A stretch of 64,000 bases of DNA, from NCBI GenBank assembly GCA_004293915.1, contig RDZG01000063.1, positions 1 through 64,000 on the forward strand. The letters are read 5' to 3'. Origin of the DNA: Bacteroidota bacterium. Its GTDB lineage: Bacteria > Bacteroidota > Bacteroidia > Cytophagales > UBA9547. Below the pieces are notes generated by a model. The model did not search any database, was not told the DNA's origin, and worked only from the letters and a program-made list of their open reading frames with translations. The translations under genes and the position numbers were made by a program. This document shows positions 10,420 to 56,453 of the stretch, in pieces; position 1 is the stretch's first letter, and each line of letters opens with the position of its first letter.

Positions 10420-10664
10420 GCAGCAACTATCACAGGCATACCTATAAGTTTCATCCAATGGACGATACCTTGTTTGAAGCGATGGAACACCATTTGTATT
10501 TATGTGCGACACCGTGTGGCTTTTAAATAAATATGACTACAATAGTGTAAAAACTATTTTGGATAACCAATCTGCAAAAGGGTACTATGCAAGTTTTTGA
10601 CAAACGTGGTTGGAGTGGAAACGAAAAAGATGTTAACAACAATATTCCTTTTAATAATAATAAC
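10420..10664 (+). pseudogene. Degenerate partial duplicate of the GH140-like gene
   Basis: About 245 bases align with 9007-9255 from GCAGCAxCTATCACAGGCAT through the GTGG-TTGG and AACAACAAT segments. The copy carries many substitutions and a net loss of a few bases that shifts the frame, so it is not translatable. At the codon matching the TAG of the first copy it reads TGG (acc-gtg-tgg-ctt), the presumed ancestral Trp. It ends directly at the terminator hairpin. It is either a tandem duplication relic or the second module of a longer gene. Confidence 0.75.
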
Positions 10665-10666
10665 AA

Positions 10667-10698
10667 AAAAGCCTCTCAAAATCATTTGAGAGGCTTTT
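10667..10698. terminator. Bidirectional intrinsic terminator
   Basis: A perfect 14-bp hairpin: AAAAGCCTCTCAAA, four-base loop ATCA, TTTGAGAGGCTTTT. A-tracts and T-tracts flank it on both sides. It lies 23 bases from the stop of the minus-strand T9SS protein and just after the plus-strand pseudogene, so it can stop both. Confidence 0.9.
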
Positions 10699-10720
10699 AA
10701 AAATGTTATTCTAATCGAAA

Positions 10721-14260: not shown

Positions 14261-14857
14261 AACTTTTTATTTTTAAATTTATGTATGAATAACACTAAAA
14301 GTAAAATAGATTTAATAAACTTATATAATGGTAGAGATTTTATAAGTAATCAAATGCGTATATTTATAAAAATCAAATGATATATAATATATTGAAAGTC
14401 AGATATTTATATGTATGCAGAAAAAGTATAAAGTTCTTTTTATAACAAATGAATGCAATTTTATATTGGAAATGTTTTAGTAGAAAATAAATTAAAATAT
14501 TTTGAAGAAAAGACTGATAAAACCTTAATTTATAGATTATGTAAATAATTATTCAAGACTCAAAAAAGTCATTTTTAAGATTATAATCAATGCCAATTTG
14601 GTGGCAATTAAAATAGGAATGGCTTATAAAAAATGTCATTTATTTTTCCAAAACATGAATAATGTAATTAATAAGCATCAACGCTTAAATTATGTTTCAA
14701 AAGCCAGGTGTTAGTTAGCCGAATTAACTTCATGTAAGGTACGTTGAGAAAAAAAGAACTTGGCATAATCAAAAGACTTTGCATTTAACTTTGTATAATA
14801 TAAAAAATTCAATGAATAATATATAAATAATTTTAACTTTATGGCAAAAAACATTAG
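14261..14857. other. 597-bp intergenic region between divergent genes
   Basis: Very AT-rich, with no credible ORF or RNA gene. It holds a short inverted repeat TGCCA-ATTTGG-TGGCA at 14591-14606, which may be chance, and a plausible -7 element TAACTTTG at 14786-14793 for the sulfatase. The promoter of the minus-strand T9SS protein must also lie here, but no good match was found. Confidence 0.5.
14786..14793 (+). promoter_or_regulatory. Putative -7 element for the sulfatase gene
   Basis: TAACTTTG matches TAnnTTTG, 65 bases before the ATG. The -33 element is weak (TTGG about 22 bp upstream). Confidence 0.3.
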
Positions 14858-16273
14858 ATGAAAAGCATATTTAAAGCAAGTTTAGCTGTATTTTTATTTT
14901 CAATACACCCCAATGAAGTTATAGCTCAATCCAAACCGAATATTGTTTTTATTTTGGCAGACGATTTAGGCATTGGCGATATAGAACCATACGGACAAAA
15001 AGAAATAAAAACCCCAAATTTGCAACAAATGGCAAAAGAAGGAAAGGTTTTTACAAATCATTATAGTGGAAATTCGGTTTGTGCACCTTCAAGATGTGTG
15101 CTTATGACAGGCAAACATACAGGTCATGCAATTGTTAGAGGTAATTTACAAGATAAAATTAAAGGGCAATTCCCTTTGCCTGATGACGAATTAACTGTAG
15201 CTCAAGTACTTAAAAACCAAGGTTATAGCACTGGTATTTTTGGCAAATGGGGTTTAGGAGAAACATACTCTACTGGCGATCCGCTCAAAAAAGGATTTGA
15301 TGTTCATTTTGGATATACTGATCAGGTTTTGGCTCACAATCATTTTCCCGAATTTTTGTTACGAAATGGTAAAAAAGAATTCTTAAATAATAAAGTAATA
15401 TATGGCGACACTACAGCTTGGCACAAAGGTTTAGGAAGTTATTCAATAATAAAAAACCAATATGCAGATGAACTTTTTGCTAATGAGGCGATTAACTTTA
15501 TTGACTTGAATAAAAACAAACCTTTTTTCGTTTACCTCGCATTTGTGCTTCCACATGATAATGGCGAATATGATAAAATAGAAAATTGCTATGAAGTTCC
15601 AAGTCAAGGAATTTATAAATGCAAAAAAGGATGGACAAAACAAGAAAAAGATTATGCAGCTTCAGTTACCTTACTTGATAAATATACTGGAAAAGTACTT
15701 GATTATTTAAAAAAATCTGGATTAGATAAAAATACTTTAGTGATTTTTACAAGTGATAATGGCACACAACAAATCGATTTGCGTTTCAAAAGTAATGGCA
15801 AATTTAGGGGAATGAAACGTGATATTTTAGAAGGTGGAATACGTGCACCTTTTATAGCTTGGATGCCTTCAAAAATAAAAGCAAACTCTGTTTCTAATCT
15901 TCCTTCTGCTTTTTATGATTTTTTGGCTACTGCAGCTGAAGTTTCGGACTCAAAAACAAAAAATATTCCAACAGATGGTATTTCGTATTGGAATGAATTG
16001 TTGGGTAAATCGCAACAAAAACATCCTTATTTATATTTTGAAATTCCTGAAAAAAATGGAGGTTGGGCAGTTATAAAAGGCAAATGGAAAGCTCTACAAA
16101 CTAATATTTGTACTGACAAACCATTAGATGTTGAACTTTATAATATCGAAATCGATCCGTCTGAATCTAAAAACCTTGCATCAGAAAATCGAGAAATTGT
16201 AAAAGAAATGGTAGAAATCATGAAAAAAGAGCGTCAAAAATCGCCACTTTTTCCTATGAACGCTATAGATTAA
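14858..16273 (+). CDS. Secreted formylglycine-dependent sulfatase (family S1)
   Basis: 471 residues with a signal peptide (cleavage after VIAQ, ~residue 24). The metal-binding start PNIVFILADDLGIGD holds the two Asp ligands. The activation motif is SVCAPSRCVLMTGKHTGH, with Cys75 in C-x-P-S-R being the residue oxidised to formylglycine. FTSDNGTQ supplies the later metal-binding Asp-Asn. Length and layout fit arylsulfatase/GalNAc-6-sulfatase-like S1 enzymes. It would remove sulfate esters from a polysaccharide, and the linkage cannot be told. The maturase (anaerobic sulfatase-maturating enzyme) is not in the window. Neighbouring glycosidases suggest a sulfated glycan target. Confidence 0.92.
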   Translation: MKSIFKASLAVFLFSIHPNEVIAQSKPNIVFILADDLGIGDIEPYGQKEIKTPNLQQMAKEGKVFTNHYSGNSVCAPSRCVLMTGKHTGHAIVRGNLQDKIKGQFPLPDDELTVAQVLKNQGYSTGIFGKWGLGETYSTGDPLKKGFDVHFGYTDQVLAHNHFPEFLLRNGKKEFLNNKVIYGDTTAWHKGLGSYSIIKNQYADELFANEAINFIDLNKNKPFFVYLAFVLPHDNGEYDKIENCYEVPSQGIYKCKKGWTKQEKDYAASVTLLDKYTGKVLDYLKKSGLDKNTLVIFTSDNGTQQIDLRFKSNGKFRGMKRDILEGGIRAPFIAWMPSKIKANSVSNLPSAFYDFLATAAEVSDSKTKNIPTDGISYWNELLGKSQQKHPYLYFEIPEKNGGWAVIKGKWKALQTNICTDKPLDVELYNIEIDPSESKNLASENREIVKEMVEIMKKERQKSPLFPMNAID

Positions 16274-16309
16274 TTTCAAAGTCGTTAAAATAAATAGTAG
16301 CTAAATTAT

Positions 16310-16825
16310 TTACTCAATTATAACCTCAAAATCAACTAAAACTTTATCGCTCATTATCCAGCTATTACCACCAACACCAAAATCTCTTCGATTGATAGCG
16401 AAATTTCCTTTAAAAGTCTTATTAACATACGTAAATGGGAATTGGATTTTCTTTTTAACGTTTTTAATCGACAGTTCGCAAGTTACTTGATATAAATCCG
16501 CTTTTGTTTGGGTAAATTCTGTTGATACAAAAGTAATTTTTGGATATTTTTCAATATCAAAATATTCTTCTTTTTTAAGATGCTTATCTCTAGCATTTAT
16601 ATCTGTATTTAAGGTGTTTACATCGATTTTTGCTTCGATTTTAGAATTAGTTACATCCTGTGTATTGAAATTTATTTGGGCTTCAAATCCAGTAAATTTG
16701 CCATCAACTTTTAAGCCCGCATTTTTAATCGAAAACTTGATACTTGCAGATTTTATTTTAAGTTCTGGTTGTGCAAACAAAACACAAGAACTATTTAATA
16801 TCAAAAATAAAATTATATTTTTCAT
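16310..16825 (-). CDS. YceI-family periplasmic protein
   Basis: 171 residues from the ATG at 16825. The upstream gene's TAA overlaps this ATG (TAATG), so the track start three codons earlier is less likely. A signal peptide (MKNIILFLILNSSCVLFAQ) precedes the YceI lipocalin-like beta barrel. The diagnostic parts are VDGKFTGFEAQINFN, LNTDINARDKHLKKEEYFDIEKYPKITFVST and the C-terminal NRRDFGVGG. The family binds polyprenoid lipids such as ubiquinone precursors in a hydrophobic pocket. It is translationally coupled to an outer-membrane-like protein. Confidence 0.9.
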   Translation of the reverse strand: MKNIILFLILNSSCVLFAQPELKIKSASIKFSIKNAGLKVDGKFTGFEAQINFNTQDVTNSKIEAKIDVNTLNTDINARDKHLKKEEYFDIEKYPKITFVSTEFTQTKADLYQVTCELSIKNVKKKIQFPFTYVNKTFKGNFAINRRDFGVGGNSWIMSDKVLVDFEVIIE

Positions 16826-32509: not shown

Positions 32510-35500
32510 ATGAACAAAATAAATACTGCTTCGAGAATATTTTTATTCGTATTAGCACAATTTTGTACGCTAAATTTTGCCATCGCTCAAAATAATTGTT
32601 TGAAGATTGGGCAAAATGTAACTGGTATTCAGTTTAAAGATGTGTTTAAGGAAAATATTGGGTGGCGATTTCCTGGTACAAGCCCAGCTGCGGTTTGTTC
32701 AGGTATTTTTGGCGCTCCTGGATGTCCTGAACAACCAATTATAGATGCTTTGCCAAAAGATGCAAATGGATATGTTACAGGTGGTATTCCTTATAATGTA
32801 TCTGGTTTGCAAACATCTATAAATAATACCTATTCTGGTTCTATTACCTCTATCACTACCTATATGCAGCGTGAAAGCTACGCTCCGTATGCATTGGGTG
32901 ATTATTATGTTTTTTGGCAAGGACAAGGTACTATGCGATTCTTTTGGAACGATGGTCCTGGTATGATAAGAATTACGGCAGGTTCTTACGGAACTATTCC
33001 TGTAGCCAATGGTTACGAACTTAATTTTGGTGTCGCTAACAATGGAATTACAGCCATTTCTGCCAATGCAGTAACTTCCGATGCTTCTGCGGGAGTGCAT
33101 TATTGTAGAATAACTGTTCCTGCCACTACAGGTACTCCAGCAAAAGATCCATTTAATAATATTGCTGGAATCGGAATGCAGATAACTTCATCTGCGGTTG
33201 CTCCCAACCATTTAAGAGGGATTTCTGTAGTAGCACCCGATTTTGGCTCAAACCCTGGTGGGTATAATGGATCTAGTAAATTTATAGCCGATGGCACTAA
33301 TGCTCGTACGTTTGTTAATTCTGGTCCCGAACATTTCAAAACACAGCCTTTTCATCCAGCATTTTTAAATTGGATTAAAATTTTTCCTGTTTTTCGTTTT
33401 AAAGATGCCATAGGAGTAGATCAAGAAACTCCTAAAGATGTATCTTGGCTCAATGTGCGTCCGTATGATTATTATACGCAAACCGCTCAAATTCCTGGTG
33501 TTGGACATCCTTATGCTTATATGTACATGATTCAGCTATGTAACTTGCTTAAAAAGGATGCATGGATAAATGGTTTTGTGAACTCTGACGAAAATTATCA
33601 ACGGAATTTGGGAAAATTATTTAAAGATAATTTAGATCCAAATCTCAAAGTGTATTTAGAGTTAAGTAATGAAAATACATGGAATTTTTTTCAGGGCTTT
33701 AATGGACCAGGTTTGATAAGTAACTACGCACAATCCAACAGCATGGACTTTTTTGATGCTGCATCCTTTTTAGAAAATAGATTTTGGGTAAATTTCGGCA
33801 GCAGTTGGAAAGGCGAAGACCAAGATCGTATGGTGCGTGTTGTAGCTGGGCAAGCGGTAAACGGATATCATTGTGCTCGTAAAACACAATATCACGAAGC
33901 CAGAAACGAAAGATATGATGTGTTGTCAGTGGCTTGGTACTTAGATCAGGTACAAGATAATGCCGCTCTTATTCCTCAAAATGGTACGCCACTTCAGTTG
34001 CTCAATGCCATGATTGCAGATAATAATTTTAATAGAAATCAAAACTCTTCTGTAAACCCTAATGGAAATATTTTCCCTTCTATTGCAAAAGTTATGCAAA
34101 TGCATGTGGGTATGGCACGTGCAAAAGGTAAAAAACTTGCACTTTACGAAGGTGGAACGCATCATTCTTATGAACAAAAGGTAAATGGGGTTGGGGTTGA
34201 TCGAGCAATTTGGGATAGGTCTAAGTTCATTAAATGGTTGCCAGAGATTCGTACATTTTATCGTTCCTTAATTGATACACTTAGAAACTTTCCAGAAGTG
34301 GAGTTGGCAATGGCATTCAATCTTTATGGTGGAAGCGGTGAACCATTATCTAATGGACAAATTGTAGAAGCGCATAATTTTGGTTTTGTACCAAACGCAT
34401 TTTCAGATACAACCGCAACAGGAGATAAGTCTTTTACATCTACGGAATTTGGAAATATTAATATTTTCGGTACCAATGCCCATGGCGTATGGAAAGAATT
34501 GAATGCACAAAACAATGTTTGGAAATTCAACTCAATCTGTACTCCTACCATCACATCCGATATTGTAGGTTCGGGTTTGTCGTTAAATTTTGTAAGCACT
34601 AGAAGTCAATATGTAAATGTAACTGGAGCTTCGCTTTTCGATCCCTTAGCTACAGCCAATTACACCATCGAAACTTGGGTAAAACCAGCCGAACTCGAAC
34701 GGCAGCAAGCTGTTTGGGCTTACTCTAATGGTTCAAATGTATTAAATGCACTTAATATTACTGCACTAAACAAATTAGAGTGGAATATTGGCAATGGCTC
34801 GACAATATTAACAGGTCCACTCGTGGAACGAGATAAATGGTACCATGTGGCAGTAGTCAAAAATGGTACAAGTGTACAAATGTATGTAAATGGTACGGTG
34901 GCAGCATCGGGTTCGGCATCGGGTTCGGCTGGTGTGCCAACCAACTACACACTTGGTGCATCAAATGCGGGTAGCCTAGCCAATTATTTTCGTGGTGGAT
35001 TAGACGAACATAGAGTTTGGAGCGGTGTAGCACTCTCGCAACCTACGATTCGAGATTATATGTGTAAAAAAATAATACCAGCCACACCTAACTATGCTTC
35101 GCTTTCTACCTATATCGAATTTAATAGCATTTCGGGCACTAATTTGATGGATAGAAAAACAGCACTTTCGCATGGCACATTAGTCAATTTTGTAGCTACC
35201 GAATCTTATGGTTATTTGCCGTCTGGTGCACCTATTGGCGATTTGAGTACCAATATTTATCCTGGCTCGTGGGCTAATACAGGGCTTTCATATACAAACC
35301 CTGTTGGTGGAGATATTATCAATGTAAATGGCATAGGAGCAGGCAATCCAGATGGCGTACATATATACGTAGTAAATCAAGCCCCAACGCTTAATACCAA
35401 ACCACAGTTTTACACCTCAATTGCAGGAAAATATTTTGGTGTATTTTTAGCAAATGGCACAAATCCAAGTTATAATGTAAATTATAACTTTCAAGGCAAT

Positions 35501-38500
35501 GCATCTGCCTCTGCTACTGTTGGGTTTAATCGTTTGGTAAAACGCGATGGAGGTTCAGATTATGCTTGGGATAATTCTGGAGCAAGAATTGACCCTTTAA
35601 ATAAAACATTGATAACCAACTGCACCGAAAATTATAGAGCAGAATATATTTTAGGTGTTCGACAAAATCAGTTAATCCAAAGACCTGGTTCAGGAACTTG
35701 TATCAGTTTACCAGGTACTTCAGTAGGAACATTTCTTAGTTTTAAAAGATCTAATGTTTATACGCTTTCGTTTTGGGCTAAAGGCGTAGGAGATGGTGTA
35801 ATGGGATTTCGTGATCCTTTTACTGAGCGTTATATTAATTATCGAGCAACGAATAGTTCTGATTTTGTGGCTAGATATCAAGATTTATCTTTAGGAAATC
35901 AAAACAAAATTAGTGGGGGAGAAAATACATCTTGGACTCACTATGCTTACACGAGAGATGCCTCTGGTTTGTTTGTTTATTATGTTAATGGTTATCCATC
36001 TTCTTCTATTGATTTTCCTGGCGATACATCAATGGTAGATATGTTCATAAAAGCAGGGGGACCTTGGGCTGGTCAATTTGATGAGCTTTCTGTATGGAAA
36101 AGAAATTTGAGCCTTACAGAAATTAGAGATTTGATGTGTAAAAAAATCACACCTTCTCACCCAAGCTATTGCGATTTACAAGCTTATTTCAAATTTGACG
36201 AAGGCAGTGGTAATGTGATGGAAAATACTTTAGGTGCAGGCAATATTGTATTTGATGGTCCGATTGCTTGGGTGAGATCTGGAGCTGCCATAGGAGATGA
36301 AAGTAAACATAACTACAACGCTCCTTTTATTGCAAGCATTGCACATCCTGATGGTGATTTTATAAAAGTAACTCCCACAGTGCAAAATGGTATGGTAGGC
36401 ACACAGGTCTATATTGTAAATTCAGATCCCAATTATCCTATTTTCCCAAGTACAGAAACCTATCCTGTAGGCATTCCAAATAGAGATACTTCAAGATATT
36501 TTGGAACGTATGTAATTCCATTCTATCCAATAGCTAATAACGACAATCAAAGGTCTTACTTATATGAATACAATTATGCGGGTAACAAAAATATTAATTT
36601 CACCAATGAGGCAAATCTTAGATTGATTCGTAGAGAAACTAATCAAGTTTTAAATTGGACAAACACTGGTATTAATCCTGTTATTGCTTCAAAAACTTTA
36701 ACTTGGCAATCTCCAATAAGACTAGATCCGCATCATCCTGTTGGTGAGTTTTTGTTAGCAGGTACCAATCCAAGCCCATTTATTGCTCCGCTCAATGGTA
36801 TTCCCACTCTGGCTGGAATTACAGGAAAATCTACTTTATGTTTAGGAGAATCTAATGCTTTATATAAAGTACTGGCTCCAGTTGATAAACGTGCATTATC
36901 ATTCAAATGGATAGCTTCAAATGGGTTGTCTTTATCAAATTCTACAGCAGATACAGTAAATGTTACAGCCTTAACAGCAGGTGCACAAACATTAACTGTT
37001 ATAGGAATTAATAAATTCGGCACTAGCACACCATTCATATATCCAATTAATGTTCAAAATACGGGTTATTTGAGTTCTAATATCACTGGAAATTTAAACC
37101 CATGTAATTCTGCAACTGCAACATATTCAGTTTCAAATGTTTCGCCATCGCCAATAGCCTATCTTTGGTCTGTAACTGGCGATGCCATTAATCCTACTCC
37201 CTCTAATTTAACTCCTTCAAACGCATTTAATTTTGGGGGTGGTGGGCAAAGCATTGTTCGTATCTCTGTATATGGACAATATTCTTGTGGATTGGCATTG
37301 ATAAATACATTAAATGTAAACAACAATAGTTTGCCAACTACTACATTAGGAATACTAGGAGATTCACTTTGTTTGATAGACAATTCTACAACAATTGCTA
37401 TAAAAGTTAATAATTCTCAAAATGGAGTTACCTACACAGCCTTTGATGGTGCAACCCCAGTGGCTACCACTACTGGTAACGGAGGCACACTTTTATTGAA
37501 TGTCCCAACAGGCATTTTAACGACTTTTGTAAATAAAGTAATTACAGTAAAAGCTCAAAATAATCTTTGTCCACTCATTCCAGTTAATATGGCAACATCG
37601 GCAAATATTTTGATGGGAAATACCCTAACTGGGGGTCAGTTAGCTCCTACTTTTGCAAATCCTGGTAATATTTGTTATGATTTGAATACAGGAGATATCA
37701 AAGATTTTCCATTAGTTATTACAAGTGGCGCTGTTTCTGGAACTACTTATACTCCCAATTATTTAACTTTTGCACAGCCTTATGGCGAACCTTTTGAATC
37801 TGTTATGGGAAGATCAGTTATTGCTACTGGTACTTCAGTAACCATGTTAGCCAAACCAAGTTCTTTCCCGTTTTGGTTGTCGTTTGGAGTTCCAAATAGT
37901 ATTAGTGGTTTTGCAAAAGCTCCCGGTTGCCCAACGCAAAAATTAACTACTAAAACTACATTTACACTCAACAACACCCCTGGAGTTGCTGTTCCTTCAA
38001 AAGTTGCCGGTCCAGGCAAAGATCAAAAAATGGATGGTGATGGTAAATATCCTGTATGTACTGGAACACCTACAAGCCATTTTACTACTGCAAAAGGTGG
38101 TTCAATTTCTCAATTTAACCAACGCTATTTTAATGGTGCTATGACGAATGGTAGTGCTAATATTACCATGAGTAGTTATTCTAATATGACTTCTGCTCAG
38201 ATTGATATCAATGATGTAGTGTATATTTTAGGAACTCAGACAGATGGAAGTGGTTTACCTGCTGGCAATAATTTGCCACAATTAGATGGTAATGGAAATA
38301 AAACACCATATTTCGTAGTAGCTGTAAACTCAGGTGCTAATACGATTCAATTAGCAACATCAAGAGGTGGTGGAGCAATTACAATGAATTTTAATGCTAC
38401 AAATATTAAATTCTGGGCACCTATTACCATTGATATTCCAGCTGGCACAAATACATTTAATATTCCTAATCGTTTTGGAACATTAGGTTTAGGTTTATAT

Positions 38501-41500
38501 TCACAAATTAATTTTATTTATGCTTCACAAGCACCAGGTGGTGTGTGTGTAGGATATAGTGGTGTTCAGTGCCATCCTACACAATATGTGGCGAGTTTTA
38601 GTGGAAGAAATTTCCAGATTTCTGCAAATCAAAGACAAGGAGGGAATAAATCTGCGGGTTACTTTATCAATCGTGGTAGAATTACATATTCTGCTGGTAA
38701 TGTTAATGTGACTGGTTTTGCTACTGTTTTTGCAAATGAAGATTTGGCTGATAATGGCGATGGGCTTGGTGGGGCTTTGTTAAGAGACATGAATAATAAC
38801 ATTATTGGTGAAGTGAACTCTGTAACCAACGAAGGTGCTTTGGTATTAAAAGCTGGTGCTATAGGGAATGGCACAAATGTAGCATTCTCATCTAGCAAAA
38901 GAATATGGTTTAGCAGTGTAGGAGAAAGCGTAGTATTATCAGCTCCACAAGATACGGATCCTAATGGCGTTGAATGGACGGTTGGACCCAAAGATGCCAT
39001 TTTAACTGTTACCTCATTTTATGGAGGGGGTGCTTACAATGCAGCTACTGGTGTATTTAGTGGAGGTAATTCTGATCCAGATTTAGTTAAAAATGGTATT
39101 ACTATCACTTGGAATGGAACATTTTCTGGAGTTGCAACCATTGGTGTTACATCATCAAAATCAACACCTTGTTTTGCAAAAAGCAATCCTCAAGGATTAC
39201 CTAGTGCGCCAGGATACGAACAGACTAACATTACTTTAGATATGTTAGGTCAAATTCCTAGTCCACCTTTGCCTATTGGCTTTACTGAACTTAGTTTTTG
39301 TCAATCGCAAAGCAACACAAATTTTGTAACCAACTCAAAAAGTGCAGTTGGAGGATATCAATGGCAATTGCAAAATGCTGGAACCAGTAATGTAGTTGCT
39401 TCTGGAGGTACTTGCGGTTGGAGCAAAGTATCTAATGTAGTTGGTGATAAAGGATTTAATGATGCATTTGGTACTTTAGGTTTTGGCGGTGGTTACTGGG
39501 CAGAAAACACTTCACCTTGTTTAAATTCAACCCCATTAGGTGGTTCACCTAGTCCGAATAATAATACAGCTGAAGTAAGTTGGCAGCCAGGCTTTACAGG
39601 ACTTGCAACTATTCGTGTTCGTACGTTAGGTTGCGGATCTATGTCGAATGCAGGTGATATGCGTGCTTCGCCTTGGGTTACGGCTGTAATCACTATTGGT
39701 GGTGCTCCAAACCCAGGAAATATTAACTTGGCAGGACAATTACAGTTATGCCAAGGAGCAAGCCCTACCCAACAATACATCGCAACTGGAACTAATATTG
39801 ATCAATTTAAGTATTATCTACGCAAACCAGGACAAATAGGAGACATAGACCCAGGATTATTGGCATACTATTCTTTCGATGGAGATTATAACAATAAAGC
39901 TACTGGAGTTTGGTCGCTTGGAGCAGCAGCAAATGGTACACCAAATAGCGTTACGGTAGCAGCTAATAAAAATGCTGTTGCTGCAAGAGCAATAACTTTT
40001 GATAATGGTGGTGATTATGTTGATTTAGGCTCAGATAGTAGATTGAATTTAACAAAAAGTTTTTCTATTGCGGCATGGATAAATTCAACGGGTGGTAATG
40101 GTTCATATTCAATTTATTCGAGAGGAACAGGTGGAGCAAATTGGCAAAATGATGTTCAGTTTCTAATAGATATAAATGGTTCAAATGCAACATTAGGAAT
40201 TAGAGGTACTACAGCTCCTTTTGCTACTCCCTATGGAGGAAGTTGGCCAGGAACATACATTGGTGCAAACTTTAGTGCTATAGGATGGAAGCATATTGTA
40301 TATACTGGTGTTTACGGTGCGGGCATACTGTCTTTGACTGGGTATGTAGATGGGGCTTTGTTAGGAAGCGTCAATATACCATTCTCTAATTCACCATTTA
40401 CTGGCAATGTGAGTACGAATTCTCGTATAGGTACTAATGGAGCACAAGGCGGCTCTCTAATTGGTGGTATAGATGAAGTGATGGTATTTGACAGGGTTTT
40501 ATTACCAGCTGATGTATCAGCTATTTATGCACTCAATGCGAATGCATTTACCGATCCATCAGATTACATTGGAGAAATAAATGGAAACACAGGTCTTTGT
40601 GCATGGCAAACTACATTCTCTGGTGCTGCTCAAATTGGTGTGCAAGCTATTGGTTGCGGTGGTTCGTCCATTAGATTATACGATGCTTTTATTTCACCGA
40701 AACCAAGTATTTTAGGTGTTTCAATTGCTGATCCATCGGGTTGTGGTAATCCATTGGCTTCTGGTTCTGTAACTATAACTTTAGCAAGTTTCAATCCAAG
40801 TACATTTACTGGCTCTCCGTGGGCAGTTTCTTGGAACAACGATTTAATTTCGGATGGTACAGCTACATTATCAGGCAATAATACAATAACTTTAAATACT
40901 GGTTTATTTGCAGGCTCTAGTGTTACAGGAGTTACTGCTTGGTATAACGGTTCTAATGGTTGTAATGCCCCTATTTCTATAACATCTAAAATCATAATTG
41001 GTACTTCACCGCCTTCTTCTTTAATAGGAACTTCTCTTATGGGAGCAAGTCAAGTCTGTACTGCGAGTACAAGTAGTGGAATAAATGTGCTCGGTTCAGA
41101 AAATAACGTTCGCTATTATGCCATGATTGGCAGTTTAATGGTTTCTCCAACCGTTGTTGGTACAGGTGGAAACATTCAATTATCAATTACAGGTAATAAC
41201 ATACTCACTTCATCAGGAGTAAACCAAGTTTATCAAATAAGAACATTAGCTTTTAGTCCAGGTTGCTCTTTGGTTACTTTAGCTGGTGTTCAAAATATTA
41301 CTGTAAATGGTTTAAGTTCAGCAAGTGGAGCAATAATCACAGGAACAAATCCAGTTTGTAATCCAGGTACCTCAGTTGTATCTGTAGGTGGTGTAAATGG
41401 AACTATAGATTGGCAAGTTTCTACAAGTGGTGCATTTGCTTCTACAGGAGGAACAGTTGCTAATTACACTACGCCATCATTAACACAAACAAGTACATTT

Positions 41501-42307
41501 AGGGCATTAGTTACAAATGGTGCATGTCCAGCTATTACTACAACTTCTTTAGTCGTAACAGTTAATTCGCCAGTTACAACTACTTTTGCTTATAATCAGC
41601 CTGCCTATTGTAATAATTTAACTACTGTAGTATCTCCAGTTTTATCTAATACAGTTGCTGGAGGTGTATTTACAGTTGCTCCTACAGGATTAACTTTGAA
41701 TGCTACTACTGGTGCTGCAACAATAAATTCAAGTTCAGCTGCTTTATATACAGTTACTTATAGTTATACTGTGCCAGGCTGTCCAGCTTTGACTACAACA
41801 ACCAGTATGCGTATTGGTTCTATACCAGGTTTAGCTTTTGGATTTATACCAACTGTATTTTGTACTTCTAGTGGTAATCAAACACCGGGAACAACTTTTA
41901 CAGGTTTAGGTTCAGGTGGTACTTTCAGCTCAACCTCGGCTGGATTAGTGTTTGCAAATGCTTCAACTGGTCAAGTTAATATAGCAGGCTCAACGGCTGG
42001 TACATATCCATTAATTTATAATGTATCAGTTGTTGGTTGTGGAAATGTAACAAGTACAGTAGGTAATGCAATCACGATAAATTCTTTATCAGGAACTTCA
42101 ATTTCATATACAGGAACTCCGTATTGTAATAATGTTTCATCTGCAAATGTAGTTGCAGTTAATACAGTTTCAGGAGGAATATATACTTCTGCCCCCGTAG
42201 GATTAACAATTAATTCAATTACTGGACTTGTAACACCAACAAGTAGTACACAAGGAATTTATACTATTACATATAGCTACACCATTCCAGGTTGTGGACT
42301 TTGGTAA
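32510..42307 (+). CDS. Giant secreted multidomain protein, N-terminal part (frameshifted)
   Basis: 3265 codons. Signal peptide to ~27. Residues ~28-690 form a glycosidase-like TIM-barrel region with KVYLELSNENTWNF (candidate acid/base Glu388) and ALYEGGTHHS (candidate nucleophile Glu547). Three LamG-like domains follow (~687-840, ~1064-1200, ~2447-2675; each with an ETWVKP/SFWAKG/AAWINS strand and a GGLDEHRVW-type end). Between them lie Ig/PKD-like strands (~1427-1520) and unassigned beta-rich regions. From ~2940 there are ~85-residue Ig-like repeats (PYCNN...TINSITGLVTPTSS...YTIPGCG). The frame ends abruptly inside a repeat with no sorting domain. The rest continues in another frame from 42292. 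Predicted extracellular. The glycan target is unknown. Confidence 0.85.
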   Translation: MNKINTASRIFLFVLAQFCTLNFAIAQNNCLKIGQNVTGIQFKDVFKENIGWRFPGTSPAAVCSGIFGAPGCPEQPIIDALPKDANGYVTGGIPYNVSGLQTSINNTYSGSITSITTYMQRESYAPYALGDYYVFWQGQGTMRFFWNDGPGMIRITAGSYGTIPVANGYELNFGVANNGITAISANAVTSDASAGVHYCRITVPATTGTPAKDPFNNIAGIGMQITSSAVAPNHLRGISVVAPDFGSNPGGYNGSSKFIADGTNARTFVNSGPEHFKTQPFHPAFLNWIKIFPVFRFKDAIGVDQETPKDVSWLNVRPYDYYTQTAQIPGVGHPYAYMYMIQLCNLLKKDAWINGFVNSDENYQRNLGKLFKDNLDPNLKVYLELSNENTWNFFQGFNGPGLISNYAQSNSMDFFDAASFLENRFWVNFGSSWKGEDQDRMVRVVAGQAVNGYHCARKTQYHEARNERYDVLSVAWYLDQVQDNAALIPQNGTPLQLLNAMIADNNFNRNQNSSVNPNGNIFPSIAKVMQMHVGMARAKGKKLALYEGGTHHSYEQKVNGVGVDRAIWDRSKFIKWLPEIRTFYRSLIDTLRNFPEVELAMAFNLYGGSGEPLSNGQIVEAHNFGFVPNAFSDTTATGDKSFTSTEFGNINIFGTNAHGVWKELNAQNNVWKFNSICTPTITSDIVGSGLSLNFVSTRSQYVNVTGASLFDPLATANYTIETWVKPAELERQQAVWAYSNGSNVLNALNITALNKLEWNIGNGSTILTGPLVERDKWYHVAVVKNGTSVQMYVNGTVAASGSASGSAGVPTNYTLGASNAGSLANYFRGGLDEHRVWSGVALSQPTIRDYMCKKIIPATPNYASLSTYIEFNSISGTNLMDRKTALSHGTLVNFVATESYGYLPSGAPIGDLSTNIYPGSWANTGLSYTNPVGGDIINVNGIGAGNPDGVHIYVVNQAPTLNTKPQFYTSIAGKYFGVFLANGTNPSYNVNYNFQGNASASATVGFNRLVKRDGGSDYAWDNSGARIDPLNKTLITNCTENYRAEYILGVRQNQLIQRPGSGTCISLPGTSVGTFLSFKRSNVYTLSFWAKGVGDGVMGFRDPFTERYINYRATNSSDFVARYQDLSLGNQNKISGGENTSWTHYAYTRDASGLFVYYVNGYPSSSIDFPGDTSMVDMFIKAGGPWAGQFDELSVWKRNLSLTEIRDLMCKKITPSHPSYCDLQAYFKFDEGSGNVMENTLGAGNIVFDGPIAWVRSGAAIGDESKHNYNAPFIASIAHPDGDFIKVTPTVQNGMVGTQVYIVNSDPNYPIFPSTETYPVGIPNRDTSRYFGTYVIPFYPIANNDNQRSYLYEYNYAGNKNINFTNEANLRLIRRETNQVLNWTNTGINPVIASKTLTWQSPIRLDPHHPVGEFLLAGTNPSPFIAPLNGIPTLAGITGKSTLCLGESNALYKVLAPVDKRALSFKWIASNGLSLSNSTADTVNVTALTAGAQTLTVIGINKFGTSTPFIYPINVQNTGYLSSNITGNLNPCNSATATYSVSNVSPSPIAYLWSVTGDAINPTPSNLTPSNAFNFGGGGQSIVRISVYGQYSCGLALINTLNVNNNSLPTTTLGILGDSLCLIDNSTTIAIKVNNSQNGVTYTAFDGATPVATTTGNGGTLLLNVPTGILTTFVNKVITVKAQNNLCPLIPVNMATSANILMGNTLTGGQLAPTFANPGNICYDLNTGDIKDFPLVITSGAVSGTTYTPNYLTFAQPYGEPFESVMGRSVIATGTSVTMLAKPSSFPFWLSFGVPNSISGFAKAPGCPTQKLTTKTTFTLNNTPGVAVPSKVAGPGKDQKMDGDGKYPVCTGTPTSHFTTAKGGSISQFNQRYFNGAMTNGSANITMSSYSNMTSAQIDINDVVYILGTQTDGSGLPAGNNLPQLDGNGNKTPYFVVAVNSGANTIQLATSRGGGAITMNFNATNIKFWAPITIDIPAGTNTFNIPNRFGTLGLGLYSQINFIYASQAPGGVCVGYSGVQCHPTQYVASFSGRNFQISANQRQGGNKSAGYFINRGRITYSAGNVNVTGFATVFANEDLADNGDGLGGALLRDMNNNIIGEVNSVTNEGALVLKAGAIGNGTNVAFSSSKRIWFSSVGESVVLSAPQDTDPNGVEWTVGPKDAILTVTSFYGGGAYNAATGVFSGGNSDPDLVKNGITITWNGTFSGVATIGVTSSKSTPCFAKSNPQGLPSAPGYEQTNITLDMLGQIPSPPLPIGFTELSFCQSQSNTNFVTNSKSAVGGYQWQLQNAGTSNVVASGGTCGWSKVSNVVGDKGFNDAFGTLGFGGGYWAENTSPCLNSTPLGGSPSPNNNTAEVSWQPGFTGLATIRVRTLGCGSMSNAGDMRASPWVTAVITIGGAPNPGNINLAGQLQLCQGASPTQQYIATGTNIDQFKYYLRKPGQIGDIDPGLLAYYSFDGDYNNKATGVWSLGAAANGTPNSVTVAANKNAVAARAITFDNGGDYVDLGSDSRLNLTKSFSIAAWINSTGGNGSYSIYSRGTGGANWQNDVQFLIDINGSNATLGIRGTTAPFATPYGGSWPGTYIGANFSAIGWKHIVYTGVYGAGILSLTGYVDGALLGSVNIPFSNSPFTGNVSTNSRIGTNGAQGGSLIGGIDEVMVFDRVLLPADVSAIYALNANAFTDPSDYIGEINGNTGLCAWQTTFSGAAQIGVQAIGCGGSSIRLYDAFISPKPSILGVSIADPSGCGNPLASGSVTITLASFNPSTFTGSPWAVSWNNDLISDGTATLSGNNTITLNTGLFAGSSVTGVTAWYNGSNGCNAPISITSKIIIGTSPPSSLIGTSLMGASQVCTASTSSGINVLGSENNVRYYAMIGSLMVSPTVVGTGGNIQLSITGNNILTSSGVNQVYQIRTLAFSPGCSLVTLAGVQNITVNGLSSASGAIITGTNPVCNPGTSVVSVGGVNGTIDWQVSTSGAFASTGGTVANYTTPSLTQTSTFRALVTNGACPAITTTSLVVTVNSPVTTTFAYNQPAYCNNLTTVVSPVLSNTVAGGVFTVAPTGLTLNATTGAATINSSSAALYTVTYSYTVPGCPALTTTTSMRIGSIPGLAFGFIPTVFCTSSGNQTPGTTFTGLGSGGTFSSTSAGLVFANASTGQVNIAGSTAGTYPLIYNVSVVGCGNVTSTVGNAITINSLSGTSISYTGTPYCNNVSSANVVAVNTVSGGIYTSAPVGLTINSITGLVTPTSSTQGIYTITYSYTIPGCGLW
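42200..42256 (+). repeat. 57-bp direct repeat, copy 1
   Basis: GGATTAACAATTAATTCA... identical over 57 bases to 42685-42741. It encodes GLTINSITGLVTPTSSTQG in the frame of the first ORF. Confidence 0.95.
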
Positions 42308-42312
42308 TAAAT
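42289..42312 (+). other. Frameshift junction of the giant surface-protein gene
   Basis: Upstream the frame reads ...YTIPGCG-LW-stop. Downstream a different frame reads LVINSLPG. In sister repeats GCG is followed by about seven codons (such as ALTTTTS) before the L-x-INS segment, but only two bases lie here. A loss of about 19 bases therefore explains both the missing residues and the frame change. The TTG at 42292 is not a credible start. Confidence 0.8.
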
Positions 42313-45300
42313 TCTTTACCAGGAATATTATTTAATTATTCAAATTCGCCATTTTGCAAAAATGGTGGTACAAGTTCTGCTCCATCAGCTACTATTGGTG
42401 GTATAGGAGGTAGTTATTCGGGTACAGCTGGTTTGGTATTTGCAAATACAACTACTGGTACAATTGATTTGAACGCATCTACTGCAGGTACATATAATGT
42501 AACTTACACCGTTTCAATTGCAGGTTGCGGAAACGTAACAAGTACAGTTGGTAATGCAATCACGATAAATTCATTACCTGGAACTAGTATTTCTTATGCA
42601 GGTTCGCCTTATTGTAATAATGTTGCATCTGCGAATGTAACAGCCGTAAACACTGTAACAGGCGGAATTTTTACAGCTCCAGCAGGATTAACAATTAATT
42701 CAATTACTGGACTTGTAACACCAACAAGTAGTACACAAGGAACATATACTGTAACGTATAATTATACGATTGCAGGTTGTGGAGCATTAACAACTACCAC
42801 TAGTTTAAGGATAAATAGTGTGCCTGGCTTATTATTTGGCTTTACAGGTAGTCCATATTGTAATATAGGTACAGCAACACCAACAACTTCTGGCTTTAAT
42901 GGAGGTGGTTTTAGTTCGGCTTCATCAAGTTTAGTATTTACAAATACTGTAACTGGAATAGTAAATTTAGCAAGTTCAACTGCAGGCACATATCCATTAA
43001 CCTATACTGTTTCAGTACCAGGTTGCGGAAATATATCGAGTACAGTTGGTAGTGCATTAACTATTAATAGTGTTCCAGGCGTGAATATATCATACGTTAG
43101 CCCAGTTTGTAATACGTCAACTATTTCAGGTGTTACAGCACTAAACACTGTCTCAGGTGGTATTTATTCAGCAACTGGTGGATTAACAATTAATCCTACA
43201 AATGGAACTGTAAATCCTTCAGGATTTGGAGGTACATATACGATTACTTATAGCTATACCATCGCAGGTTGCGGACCGCAAAGCACAACTACTAGTTTGG
43301 TTGTAACTACGTTGCCAAGTACCCCAACATTGAGTTATGGTGCTGCACCATATTGTAGTAGCAGTTCTCCAATTAGTTTGGTTTCTTCTACAAATGCTTT
43401 AAATGGCTCATTCTTTAGTACTGCCACCGGTTTTAGCGTAAATGCTACAAATGGACAAATTACGATTCCACAAAATACATTAGCTGGTGTTTTTGTAGTT
43501 CGTTATGATATTCCAGCTGGTGCAGGATGTGCATCCGTAACGGGAAATAATACCATTACATTATCGGGAGTACCTAATGTTTTGACTATCACAAATATAC
43601 CAGCCACACAATGTTATAATGCTCAAGTTGTTTTAAATGCAACAGGTACAATACCAGGTGCATCTATACAATGGTTGCAAGATGGAGTAGCAGTTGGTAC
43701 AAACTCAGCAGTTTATACTACTACTGGTTTAACAAATACATCATATACTTATGTTGCGGTTCTTAATAATGGTGTTTGTACCACAGTTCCATCAGCACCT
43801 ATGGTTGTAAATGTAAATGTAAATCCAACGGTTACAGGAATTAGCTCAAGCCAAAGTTTTGCTTGTAGTTCGCAATCGGTAACCTTTAACAATACTGGTT
43901 TAGTTGGAAGTATAGTTTATGCAGTAAATACAGGTACAGGTTTTAATGTATTGCCAAGCAATATTTATACATTTACCAATACGATTGTTGGTAATGCCTT
44001 TAGTTTTGTAGGTTATGCGTTTGTAGCTGGTTGTCAAACAGTAACTTCAACTCCAATTATAGTTAATTCAAGTCTTTGCGGATTAACAGCTGCGTTTGCT
44101 TCTAACCCAACACCAATTTGTTTAACTAATGCATCTTCTACCGGAGTTACATTTACAAATACTTCTTCAAGTGCTGGAGGAACAATTTTAGGTTATGTTT
44201 GGAATTTTGGTGCAAATGCAACACCAGCATCAACGGTCATTGGTATAAATTCAACAAGTTATACTATTAATGTAACTTATTCTGCAGCTGGTCCGAAAAC
44301 GATAACATTATCTATTTTGGGAACAGGAGGTTTAACAAGTACGATTTCTGGTTCTGTGCAAGTAGATGCTTTGAGTACAATTTCTGCAATGTCTATTCCC
44401 GTAACTGCAATATGCGAAACCAATACCTCATCTGTAGTATCTGTAACCGCTCTAGGAAACATTCAATGGTATAAAGCAGGAGTTGCACAAGGCACGGCAG
44501 GTTTACAAGTGGCAGGTGCAATGACATCAAACACAACATTTATTGCTACTGCGGTAAATGGCGTTTGTCCGATGGTAACTGCTACAGGAGTTGTTACAGT
44601 AACAAATCTGAATGTTGGTGGTTCAATCGCAGGAGCTAGTCCAATATGTGCAAGTTCTTCTGGACTTAATTTAACAGTAACGAGTCAAGTGGGTAATAGC
44701 TATACTTGGTATAATAGTACCAACAGTGGAACTACTTGGAATGCATTATCAAGCAATGTGAATACTATTGCAACGGGTACATTATCTACTACAACTTCTT
44801 ATGTTGTGAGTGTAACTGGTGGAGCTTGTCCAAATGTAGCATCTGGAATTGTAAATATAAATGTAACGCCAACACCAATTGCAGGTACATCAAGTGTGGA
44901 TAGAATGATAGTATGTACGAGCGATGGAAATGGTGGAATTTACACATTAGCAAATTCATCTGGTACGATTCAGTGGGAACGCTCTTTAGATTTAAGCTCT
45001 TGGGCAAATGCAGCAGGTGCAGGTAATACAACAGCATCATTGACAGCAAATGTTGAAACCGTTATTGGTCCGAAATATTTCAGAGCAAGAGTAACCAACG
45101 GTGGTGCTTGTGGAGATGTTTACTCAAATGTAATTACTGTTACAGCATCGAGCTGTGGTTTACAAGCTGCGTTTACTCCAATCCTTACCACAGTTTGCGT
45201 AAGTGTTGGTAACACGGTACGTTTCACAGACGCATCTACTTCTACAAACACAATCTTAGGATATACTTGGGATTTTGCAGGAGGTACAGGCGGAAATGTA

Positions 45301-48300
45301 AATACTGCTGGTCCGCATGATATTACTTTTGGAACTTCAGGTCCAAAAAATGTACGTTTAACAATTTTAGGTCTAGGAGGATTAACAAGTATTGCTAATG
45401 GTAGTGTAACTGTGGATGGAACAAGCTTACAAGGCTCAATATCATCAGGCTTAGCTGCTCCTATATGTTATAAAACAGGTTCTACTTTAACATTGACAGG
45501 TAGCTTAGGTGCTATTCAATGGTATAGTACAACTACTGGATTGTTAGTAGGTACAACCTCTACTTTGGGTACTGGTAACCTAACTGCAAGTGATGGTTAT
45601 TTTACAACGGTTAAAAATGGTGTTTGTCCGATGCTAACTACTTCTGGCGTTTCTGTAGCAGTTCATCCACAAAGCAATGCGGGTACTATCACATCAAATG
45701 CCGCAAGTGTTTGTCAAAACTTAACAGCTACGTTGGGAGTAACAGGAAATACAGGTACAATATACCAATGGCAGTCATGGAATGGCTCGGCTTTTGTAAA
45801 TGTTCCAAATGCTACTTTAGCTGGCTTTACTACTTCTGCATTAACAAATACCATATCAGGAACTTATCAATACAGATTAGAAGTTAAAAGCGGTATAAAT
45901 GCATGTACACCTGCTTATTCTAATACAGTTACAGTAGATGCTATTGTATGTTCGTTGTCTGCAAATGTTACTGTTAATGGAACTTTATTACCAACAGCAA
46001 TTAGTTTACAAAATGCTTCGGGTACTGGTCTTAATTTTGGAGTACAATTAATTAGTGGTACTGTGGTTGGTTACAACTGGAGCTTAGCTGGAGCAGGAAC
46101 AACCTCTTCTGCAGCTTCAACAGTAAATACAGGTTATGCAACCCCAGGTGTTTATAATGTATTAGTTACTGTAATTGGAGTTGGTAATGTGCCATTCCCT
46201 TATTTAGTAGTAATCACTATTGATGGAATGAGCCTACCAGGTACTATTACAGGTAATGGTACTTCTGTAAATCCAATTTGTTATAACACAAACGATGTAC
46301 TCACGTTGTCAGGTTTTGTAGGCAATGCCATACAATGGTATAATAGTTCAGGAATAATTGTAGGTGCAAATGCTGCAACTTACACTACGCCAAACTTAAC
46401 GGCAAATGAAACTTATTTTGCTACTGTTAGAAATGGAGTATCTCCAATGGTAACAGCAACTGGTTTTATTGTAAATGTGCGCCAACAAGCTACATCTACT
46501 GGTGTAAATATTCCTGCTACTTTGTGTATTGGTACTAATGCTAGCATTACTGCAACTGGAATTTTAGGAACTGTTACCGGATGGGAATCTTCAGCTGATA
46601 ATTCTTCATGGAGTTCGACTGCTTTAACTGGTAATCCAACTACATTGGTATCATTAACTGATCCCATTGTTTATTACAGACCGCTAATTACAAACGGAAT
46701 TGGTTGTACGCCTGTTGGTGGAAATTCAGTGTTAATTGATGCTATTGGTTGTACAGCTACTGTTTCATTTACTGGTCATCCTTTGGCTACACAATGCGTA
46801 AGCACAGCAAGTGTTGCAGGATACACCATGGTAGATGCAACAATTTCTGCGGCTCCTAAATTAGCTTGGGCTTGGAATTTTGGATCTGGCGCTAATCCAC
46901 TAACTGCTACTACTTCGGCTCCTGGTGTAGTAACCTATTCAACGCCAGGTGCTAAACAAATTACTTTAACGGTAACTATTGCTGGCGGAAATGTATTTAC
47001 TTCGACTACAACGGTTGGTATTTCTGACTCATTTACGTTAGATGGACTTGCTTTTGCTAGTTCAATAGTTTCAAATTCTACTGCACTTTGTTCGGGCAAT
47101 AGCTTAAATCTAAGTATATCTGGTGTGCCAACTGCAACTACTTATGCTTGGGAAAGAGCAGCTACAAATACATTTGTTTCGCCAACTTCTTTAGGTAGTG
47201 TAACCACAGCAGGAGAATCAATGCCTATCCCAACTGGCACATCATCTGATTATTTCTACAGATTAGGTGTTACAAATGGTGCTTGTTTGGTTACAAATTA
47301 TTCAAATGTAATTACTGTAAGTTCTACTTTGCAGCCTTCGGCTTCAATTTCTTACACATTAGATAATTGTAAAGGTAATGTTAGTCAATCTGATGTTCTA
47401 GTTACGGTTACAACTGTGGCAGGAGGTTCATTCCCTTATTCATTCTCTTCGGGTTCTTTAGGAGGAAGTTTAAATTCAAGTTCAGGTTTGATAAGTATTG
47501 CTTCTGCTCCAATTGGTAACCATGTTGTAACATTAACTGCGTCTGCGTTCAAAGGTTGTAATGCTTTCACAACTACTACGGGTGTTAATATCAATCAAAA
47601 TCCAACTGCTTCGTTTAGTTATCCTAATGCCTCATACTGCGAAAACTATGGAACTGTACCAGTTGCTTTATTTAACACCTCTGGAACCACCACTACTGGT
47701 AACTTCTTTAGTAACTCTACTTTAGTTGTGAATGCTACAAACGGAGAAGTAACTACCAATAATACTACTCCTAGTAATTATTCTGTATTTTATGCTTTGA
47801 ATGCAACAGCTGGTTGCCCTGCAAGTACCTCTTCTGGGGTATCATTTACAATTAGAGCAAATCCAGTTGCAAACACGCCAACATACTCAAATAATTCAAA
47901 TAATTTGTATTGTAATATTGGTACATCTGGTGATGCAACTTCTACTAATGCTGGTGGTTCTTATGCTTCAAGTCCTAGCGTTGCGTTCTCAAATGCTTCG
48001 ACAGGTAATATAAACCTTGCTAGTGTTACAACTAACAGTATATTTAACATACGGTATGTAATAAATGCAACGCCAACTTGTGCTGCAGTTACTTCTACTG
48101 GGTTTGCAACAGTTAGTGTTAATCCACAAGTTACGCCAAGCATTTCTTATGCAAATTCTGTTTATTGTTATAATAATAGTACAAATACTGAACCTGCAAG
48201 CGTTAATCCAAGTGGTGGTACTTTTGCAGTTAATGGTGCAGGCTTTACGATTAATAATAACAGACAAGTTGTGTTTGGAAACAGTATTGGCAAGTCATCA

Positions 48301-49560
48301 TCGTTTACTGTATCTTATACTACAACTGTTCCTGGATGTACTTCACAAACTATTACTACTACTGGTATTACAGTTGTTAGAATGGTTGCACCAACTAGTT
48401 TTGGTTATACTTCAAACACAAAAGGTGTTGGTGGTCAGTTTTGTAATAGTGGTGCTGACTTAGTCCCTACTTTTGTTGGTTCTGCATTTGATGGTTGGAA
48501 TCCTACTTTCAGTGTTAATATAGCAGGTGTGCCTTCTAGTAACGTAATTAAATCAGATGGTACAATTATGATTAGTAAATTACCTGTAGGTAGTTGGACA
48601 GTAACTTATACCGATAATGTAAATAATTGTGGTGCTTTTACTGCCCTTACAGCAGTAGTAAATGTAACCTCTTCGGGTGTTGCAGATATATTCCAAACTG
48701 ATAAAGGAGTTTGCGATGGAAGCCCAATTGTTTTAGTAGTTGATCCACAAAAAATTGCTGATGCTTCTACATTTGTATGGTCTGAAAAATTCAATAATGG
48801 CGTTACAACTTTAGCTGAAACCACAAAAGAATTAAATCATACAATGACTGGTAGTGGCTTACATACAATAAAAGTATCAGTAACAAATGGTCAATGTTTG
48901 CCAAAAGCAGATTCTGTAAATATAAGTGTTGATGCATATCCAGAAGCTGGTGTGATAAAAACAGTAATACCTGGCGATACCTTATTATGTTATGAACCTA
49001 CAATTGCCAATTTGACAATCATTGGGTTCAGAGGTAATAATTTTATTTGGGAATACTCTAAAAAGGAAGTTGATGAAGAAAAAAATGTAAAATATTTGCC
49101 AGCTCAAGGTTTTTATCAAAGTTTCTTGGCTTACGATAGTAAACTTCCATCTGCTACATCTCCAGCATTTAATTCAAATGCAGATTTTACAAGTAAGTTA
49201 TATATTAGAGCAAAAGTATACAATGGTGTTTGTACACTTGGTCCTGACGGAAAAGATGTTTATACGCCAGTGTTTATTATTTCTAAATGTCCTAAAAATA
49301 ATTTTATTCCAAATGCTTTAACTCCAGGCTCAGCAGATGGTAATTCGTTCTGGGATATTCAAAAATTACGTTTGCCTGATAATGTTACAATAACAATCTT
49401 TAATCGTTATGGAGTAGAAGTTTATAGCATGACAGGCAAAGATTTACAAACTCGCACTTTCGATGGCGATGGCTTGCCAGCAGGTACTTATTATTATTTG
49501 ATTGATTATAAAGGTGCAAAAACAGAAAATGATCGTGGGGATTTAACAATTATTCGTTAA
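42292..49560 (+). CDS. Giant secreted multidomain protein, C-terminal part with T9SS type B sorting domain
   Basis: 2422 codons continuing the interrupted giant gene, with no start signal of its own. Ig-like ~85-residue repeats fill ~1-430. Further Ig-like units follow, and four PKD-like domains (~600-700, ~960-1050, ~1222-1320, ~1487-1590; typical cores GYVWNFG, GYTWDFAGG, GYNWSLAG, AWAWNFG). The last ~90 residues (CPKNNFIPNALTPGSADGN, ITIFNRYGVEVY, DGDGLPAGTYYYLIDY) are a type B T9SS domain of the gliding-motility-associated (CHU_C) kind. Type B signals typically direct surface or extracellular release, often with PorP/SprF partners. None is in the window. As it stands this half probably is not made. 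Confidence 0.85.
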   Translation: MWTLVINSLPGILFNYSNSPFCKNGGTSSAPSATIGGIGGSYSGTAGLVFANTTTGTIDLNASTAGTYNVTYTVSIAGCGNVTSTVGNAITINSLPGTSISYAGSPYCNNVASANVTAVNTVTGGIFTAPAGLTINSITGLVTPTSSTQGTYTVTYNYTIAGCGALTTTTSLRINSVPGLLFGFTGSPYCNIGTATPTTSGFNGGGFSSASSSLVFTNTVTGIVNLASSTAGTYPLTYTVSVPGCGNISSTVGSALTINSVPGVNISYVSPVCNTSTISGVTALNTVSGGIYSATGGLTINPTNGTVNPSGFGGTYTITYSYTIAGCGPQSTTTSLVVTTLPSTPTLSYGAAPYCSSSSPISLVSSTNALNGSFFSTATGFSVNATNGQITIPQNTLAGVFVVRYDIPAGAGCASVTGNNTITLSGVPNVLTITNIPATQCYNAQVVLNATGTIPGASIQWLQDGVAVGTNSAVYTTTGLTNTSYTYVAVLNNGVCTTVPSAPMVVNVNVNPTVTGISSSQSFACSSQSVTFNNTGLVGSIVYAVNTGTGFNVLPSNIYTFTNTIVGNAFSFVGYAFVAGCQTVTSTPIIVNSSLCGLTAAFASNPTPICLTNASSTGVTFTNTSSSAGGTILGYVWNFGANATPASTVIGINSTSYTINVTYSAAGPKTITLSILGTGGLTSTISGSVQVDALSTISAMSIPVTAICETNTSSVVSVTALGNIQWYKAGVAQGTAGLQVAGAMTSNTTFIATAVNGVCPMVTATGVVTVTNLNVGGSIAGASPICASSSGLNLTVTSQVGNSYTWYNSTNSGTTWNALSSNVNTIATGTLSTTTSYVVSVTGGACPNVASGIVNINVTPTPIAGTSSVDRMIVCTSDGNGGIYTLANSSGTIQWERSLDLSSWANAAGAGNTTASLTANVETVIGPKYFRARVTNGGACGDVYSNVITVTASSCGLQAAFTPILTTVCVSVGNTVRFTDASTSTNTILGYTWDFAGGTGGNVNTAGPHDITFGTSGPKNVRLTILGLGGLTSIANGSVTVDGTSLQGSISSGLAAPICYKTGSTLTLTGSLGAIQWYSTTTGLLVGTTSTLGTGNLTASDGYFTTVKNGVCPMLTTSGVSVAVHPQSNAGTITSNAASVCQNLTATLGVTGNTGTIYQWQSWNGSAFVNVPNATLAGFTTSALTNTISGTYQYRLEVKSGINACTPAYSNTVTVDAIVCSLSANVTVNGTLLPTAISLQNASGTGLNFGVQLISGTVVGYNWSLAGAGTTSSAASTVNTGYATPGVYNVLVTVIGVGNVPFPYLVVITIDGMSLPGTITGNGTSVNPICYNTNDVLTLSGFVGNAIQWYNSSGIIVGANAATYTTPNLTANETYFATVRNGVSPMVTATGFIVNVRQQATSTGVNIPATLCIGTNASITATGILGTVTGWESSADNSSWSSTALTGNPTTLVSLTDPIVYYRPLITNGIGCTPVGGNSVLIDAIGCTATVSFTGHPLATQCVSTASVAGYTMVDATISAAPKLAWAWNFGSGANPLTATTSAPGVVTYSTPGAKQITLTVTIAGGNVFTSTTTVGISDSFTLDGLAFASSIVSNSTALCSGNSLNLSISGVPTATTYAWERAATNTFVSPTSLGSVTTAGESMPIPTGTSSDYFYRLGVTNGACLVTNYSNVITVSSTLQPSASISYTLDNCKGNVSQSDVLVTVTTVAGGSFPYSFSSGSLGGSLNSSSGLISIASAPIGNHVVTLTASAFKGCNAFTTTTGVNINQNPTASFSYPNASYCENYGTVPVALFNTSGTTTTGNFFSNSTLVVNATNGEVTTNNTTPSNYSVFYALNATAGCPASTSSGVSFTIRANPVANTPTYSNNSNNLYCNIGTSGDATSTNAGGSYASSPSVAFSNASTGNINLASVTTNSIFNIRYVINATPTCAAVTSTGFATVSVNPQVTPSISYANSVYCYNNSTNTEPASVNPSGGTFAVNGAGFTINNNRQVVFGNSIGKSSSFTVSYTTTVPGCTSQTITTTGITVVRMVAPTSFGYTSNTKGVGGQFCNSGADLVPTFVGSAFDGWNPTFSVNIAGVPSSNVIKSDGTIMISKLPVGSWTVTYTDNVNNCGAFTALTAVVNVTSSGVADIFQTDKGVCDGSPIVLVVDPQKIADASTFVWSEKFNNGVTTLAETTKELNHTMTGSGLHTIKVSVTNGQCLPKADSVNISVDAYPEAGVIKTVIPGDTLLCYEPTIANLTIIGFRGNNFIWEYSKKEVDEEKNVKYLPAQGFYQSFLAYDSKLPSATSPAFNSNADFTSKLYIRAKVYNGVCTLGPDGKDVYTPVFIISKCPKNNFIPNALTPGSADGNSFWDIQKLRLPDNVTITIFNRYGVEVYSMTGKDLQTRTFDGDGLPAGTYYYLIDYKGAKTENDRGDLTIIR
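42685..42741 (+). repeat. 57-bp direct repeat, copy 2
   Basis: Identical to 42200-42256, offset 485 bp. 485 is not divisible by three, and the two copies are read in different frames. Adding the ~19 missing bases gives 504, which is divisible by three. Confidence 0.95.
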
Positions 49561-56263: not shown

Positions 56264-56356
56264 ATTTTTAGTTGAAAGTTTAAAATTGATAGTTGATAGT
56301 TTATTTCTTCTAGTTGATAACTTTTTATTTTATGGTATGATTTTTTAATTTTTTTT

Positions 56357-56453
56357 AACAATTAACAATTAACAATTAACAATTAACAATTAACAATTAA
56401 CAATTAACAATTAACAATTAACAATTAACAATTAACAATTAACAATTAACAAT
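56357..56453. repeat. Octamer tandem repeat (AACAATTA)x12
   Basis: About 97 bases made of a perfect 8-bp unit, roughly 12 copies. The right end runs into the 3' end of the sufT-like gene and supplies its last codons and stop. The stretch just to the left (56270-56330) has looser TTGATAGTTGATAGTT-type repeats. There are no spacers, so it is not CRISPR. Confidence 0.97.

Follow-up and report, generated by a model that had tools for sequence, protein, structure and literature searches.

A giant type B T9SS surface-protein gene in a Cytophagales bacterium, probably broken by a recent 19-nt frameshift deletion

Two long open reading frames (ORFs) overlap by 16 bases in different frames on the forward strand of a 64,000-nt stretch of the genome of an environmental Bacteroidota bacterium (assembly GCA_004293915.1, contig RDZG01000063.1, positions 1 to 64,000; hereafter the window), raising the question of whether they are two genes, two frames joined during translation, one state of a variable gene, or a single gene whose frame was lost either in the sampled strain or in the assembly. 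The two parts are as follows.

32510-42307, + strand: 5' part of the giant surface-protein gene (ORF1; 3265 aa, ATG start)
42292-49560, + strand: 3' part of the same giant gene (ORF2; 2422 codons, TTG start), the gene segment itself taken as 42295-49560

ORF1 encodes a signal-peptide-like N-terminus (a call made from sequence alone), LamG-like (Laminin_G_3) domains and the first section of a repeat array, and its product terminates as YTIPGCG-LW-stop, with no sorting domain found in ORF1. ORF2 is stop-free across 2420 sense codons and encodes the remaining repeat array, PKD/Ig-like domains and, at the C-terminus, the CHU_C sorting domain that marks a T9SS type B cargo protein, as evidenced by a match to CHU_C/PF13585 with an E value of 4.8e-14 (52.7 bits, cut-off 27); the score against TIGR04131 (E 2.1e-08, 34.2 bits) falls slightly below the cut-off of 35. 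These coordinates and domains agree with an earlier note on this DNA, which had described ORFs of 3265 and 2422 codons sharing 16 bases, the first ending mid-repeat with no sorting domain and the second ending with a type B T9SS domain. No Rfam match was obtained in the window. An intergenic perfect tandem array of 14 copies of the heptamer TTAACAA was observed at 56355-56453, and matching arrays recur in many contigs of the two closest relatives described below.

Comparison with 59 related genomes recovered the whole protein in two, both of the same genus (G001 and G002), which correspond to the public MAGs JAAFIH01 and REAG01, labelled Cytophagales bacterium. The orthologue is a single uninterrupted frame in each, of 5737 codons stop to stop in G002 (5733 aa from ATG) and 5941 codons in G001 (5932 aa from ATG), and both have a type B-like (CHU_C) T9SS domain at the C-terminal end. 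In G002 and G001, one polypeptide thus carries signal peptide and sorting domain, whereas in the window the frame is broken between the two. The point of the break, and the repeat unit in which it lies, were located by alignment.

42298/42299, + strand: site where 19 nt are missing in comparison with G002 (single-gap alignment, unit alignment)
42290-42522, + strand: shortened repeat unit of 233 nt; its G002 orthologue has 252 nt (84 codons)

Half-units, each about 246-258 nt (82-86 codons) long, make up the array. From 41777 to 43266, the window units measure 258, 255, 233, 252, 246 and 246 nt and correspond one-to-one with G002 units of 258, 255, 252, 255, 246 and 246 nt, the third window unit being the sole one of the six with a length not divisible by three. 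Direct alignment with G002 placed a single 19-nt gap at 42298/42299, on both sides of which the sequence is otherwise in frame. Given the unit-by-unit correspondence with G002 and the uninterrupted frames of both relatives, the two ORFs are a single gene from which 19 nt are missing; undamaged, it would have about 5,690 codons. The loss shifts the frame, with translation ending at the TAA at 42305-42307, two codons past the break. The suggestion of the earlier note that one gene for some 5,700 residues had been split by the absence of about 19 bases near 42300 is borne out by the two intact relatives. As expected of a frameshifted pseudogene, a close relative retains the orthologue intact, and against this unbroken G002 frame the window shows an out-of-frame gap of 19 nt.

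The surroundings of the break are mosaic, with three features close to it.

42200-42256, + strand: 57-bp exact repeat, copy 1 (exact match)
42685-42741, + strand: 57-bp exact repeat, copy 2 (exact match)
42299-42528, + strand: divergent tract; scored per 12-codon step, identity to G002 is 48-83% and mostly under 75%

The two 57-bp copies, already noticed earlier as flanking the break, are offset by 485 bp (0 expected by chance), and each lies in the same codon phase of its own ORF. They are identical in the window but their G002 counterparts are not identical to one another, a sign of homogenisation or unit exchange in the lineage of the window. The left edge of the divergent tract coincides with the break; identity to G002 is 79-100% to its left, and to its right is mixed (67-97%) up to about 42778 and then mostly 86-100%. 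By whole units, the broken one is 66% identical to its G002 counterpart, compared to 81-93% for the neighbouring units. A search for the donor of the divergent unit (42308-42680) found no match better than 79% across ten genomes of the family. Over the whole gene, identity to G002 is 97-100% in most of the initial ~2400 aligned codons, after which tracts of 45-77% alternate with tracts of 84-100%. The last ~900 codons (46786-49555), which include the sorting-domain region, differ from G002 as much as from G001, the more distant relative, and the 3' end has therefore probably been replaced or shuffled independently of the 5' half.

The high identity of the 5' half is itself unusual for this pair of genomes. 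Positions 32510-39871 of the window align with positions 8993-16345 of the G002 stretch L012 at no less than 97% DNA identity, and over the first 2000 aligned codons dS is 0.065 between window and G002 and about 1.5 between window and G001. In contrast, gltB, which lies on the same G002 contig as the giant gene, has a dS of 1.30 and 81% identity to the window's genome, and for most other genes the identity between the two genomes lies at 68-85%. Similarity between window and G002 reaches back only about 12 nt from the ATG. Given the dS of 0.065 in codons 1-2000 against 1.30 in gltB, a recent exchange of the giant gene between species is probable. Formally, the high identity could also stem from a chimeric contig in G002. 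A misbinned G002 contig was rejected as its source, since the gltB on that contig is only 81% identical and the contig is not simply from the species of the window. An N-terminal part at 97-100% among other genes at 68-85% points to recent within-genus exchange of giant surface-protein genes and to mosaic evolution of their repeats, and this exchange and the mosaic repeats are more notable than the frameshift itself.

Combining the orthologues, the unit lengths and the junction, we favour a real and recent frameshift deletion of 19 nt in the sampled strain, at a probability of roughly 0.7. The frame break, the shortfall of 19 nt, the intact orthologues and the mosaic structure are shown by the sequences, whereas the presence of the deletion in living cells, how it arose and what becomes of the product are inferred. 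The loss may have arisen during the unit-to-unit recombination that makes the gene a mosaic, and the simplest history would be a recombination event involving the divergent unit that left an imperfect, out-of-frame left junction. As to its age, changes were assigned to lineages with G001 as outgroup. The ratio of nonsynonymous to synonymous changes in ORF2 is 104:160 in the window lineage and 84:147 in the lineage of the intact G002 gene, and in ORF1 the corresponding values are 29:97 and 44:98. Neither stops nor substitution counts gave any sign of prolonged decay or relaxed selection past the lesion in ORF2, suggesting that the break, if real, is recent. An undecayed ORF2 is equally expected under an assembly error, and does not separate deletion from error.

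An artefact of assembly or sequencing, in which the gene is whole and 19 nt were lost as repeat-containing or mixed-strain reads were joined, is unlikely, more so than first appearances suggest. The genome is a draft in 156 contigs and probably a metagenome bin, in which strain mixtures or chimeric reads can cause local errors; repeats lie on either side of the break, one exact 57-bp copy ending 42 nt upstream of it; the divergent tract that starts at the break could be a chimeric join of strain variants; and the gene is whole in both relatives. Against this stands the manner in which the assembly was evidently made. Contig ends in the window's genome fall into families that are identical over 95-99 bp and then diverge, as found in seven unrelated repeat families (three contig starts that are masked N stretches were left out of this estimate), which indicates a short-read de Bruijn assembly with a last k near 99-100. 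The 57-bp repeat is shorter than this final k, and a misjoin through it would alter the length by about one unit rather than by 19 nt. A false join in a de Bruijn assembly needs a common word at least as long as the smallest k, commonly about 20. Words of at least 12 nt spanning the junction have no second occurrence in the sequence stretches examined, and, with up to 3 mismatches allowed, the genome has a single copy of the 21-nt junction. A graph misjoin is thus implausible, as the junction offers no common word through which it could act, although chimeric reads or strain mixtures could still have produced the gap. Elsewhere in this assembly, two giant type B genes stay open over 4946 and 5285 codons. 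The window contains no runs of N.

Two further observations concern other contigs of the window's genome (G000). Six of them (C2, C7, C26, C89, C149 and C81; stretches L025-L030) share the same ~98 bp at their start, ending TTATTAGACTTTATATAA, which is possibly the end of an assembly-breaking multicopy insertion sequence. Contig C1 (L036, 3505 bp) carries near its start the word GCGATCGC (HIP1, typical of cyanobacteria) and may be a contaminant, which would fit a cyanobacteria-associated sample. A paper on Microcystis-associated Cytophagales (PMC8477515) offered ecological context only.

Another explanation takes the window to hold the OFF state of a variable gene, in which part of the population has had its frame altered, reversibly or recurrently, by recombination between repeat copies. 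The 57-bp copies flank the break 485 bp apart and are in phase, and a crossover between them would therefore take out the break and some of the array, giving an open frame; neighbouring units are also homogenised and of mosaic ancestry. However, such a crossover is a one-way loss of units that is possible in any repeat array, and a single state has been seen. Neither a short tandem repeat at the break nor inverted repeats in 41000-44500, as a slipped-strand or inversion switch would use, were found, and slippage on a simple repeat was ruled out by the missing tandem repeat. A variable gene is thus improbable. It is similarly doubtful that ON/OFF switching would come with variation in length, near-identical units being exchanged repeatedly to give in-frame and out-of-frame arrays and so to switch the export of a horizontally exchanged giant protein.

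That the locus comprises two separate genes, as the two long ORFs might suggest, is very improbable. ORF2 begins within a repeat and has no signal peptide and no credible start, the earliest Met being residue 503 of its frame, and both relatives have a single frame. A separate second gene was rejected on the missing Met before residue 503 and on the intact orthologues; of the start codon, promoter and signal peptide that, according to the earlier note, would argue for two genes, ORF2 has neither a credible start nor a signal peptide. Programmed -1 (or +2) ribosomal frameshifting, to which the 16-nt overlap of two open frames might lend itself, is scarcely credible and was rejected, since the orthologues are unsplit and need no frameshift, a unit read through by slippage in the overlap would in any case lack several residues, and no X XXY YYZ slippery heptamer occurs in 42200-42330. 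Of the four causes that had been left open at the outset, a recent deletion is thereby favoured and an assembly error is less likely in view of the contig ends and the lack of junction homology, while a phase switch lacks a dedicated mechanism in the sequence and programmed frameshifting does not hold.

Under the favoured reading of a real 19-nt deletion, translation from 32510 would yield 3,265 residues, beginning with a signal-peptide-like sequence and lacking a type IX sorting domain. In T9SS, the C-terminal domain has an established role in export. Because this domain is absent from ORF1, T9SS export of the 5' product is predicted to fail, as the earlier note had anticipated; the truncated protein would reach the periplasm with neither export nor anchoring, and the 3' half, having no start of its own, should not be made. 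For the analysis of draft genomes, the locus illustrates how comparison with intact relatives can identify a split giant ORF as one broken gene, and contig-end overlaps offer a reusable test of whether such breaks came from a graph misjoin.

A search of the literature on giant T9SS genes and on repeat-driven frameshifts in Bacteroidetes yielded nothing directly comparable among the results listed, and the locus was compared to three known kinds of system. Giant T9SS surface proteins of Bacteroidota of the CHU_C/type B class (TIGR04131) have the same N-terminal signal peptide, LamG, PKD and Ig-like repeats and C-terminal CHU_C domain, and the window's genome itself holds 33 CHU_C matches, two of them in the open frames of 4946 and 5285 codons; unlike in these proteins, no single product of the window gene has both signal peptide and sorting domain. 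Phase-variable adhesin genes can be switched by changes in repeat number. Like them, the window gene encodes a surface protein and is out of frame with repeats nearby, but its break has no short tandem repeat and only one state has been observed. With frameshift-inactivated surface-protein genes, the window gene shares a small out-of-frame deletion, intact relatives and an undecayed remainder, differing from them in size only, and the case is best seen as ordinary gene damage, a frameshifting deletion that is probably real.
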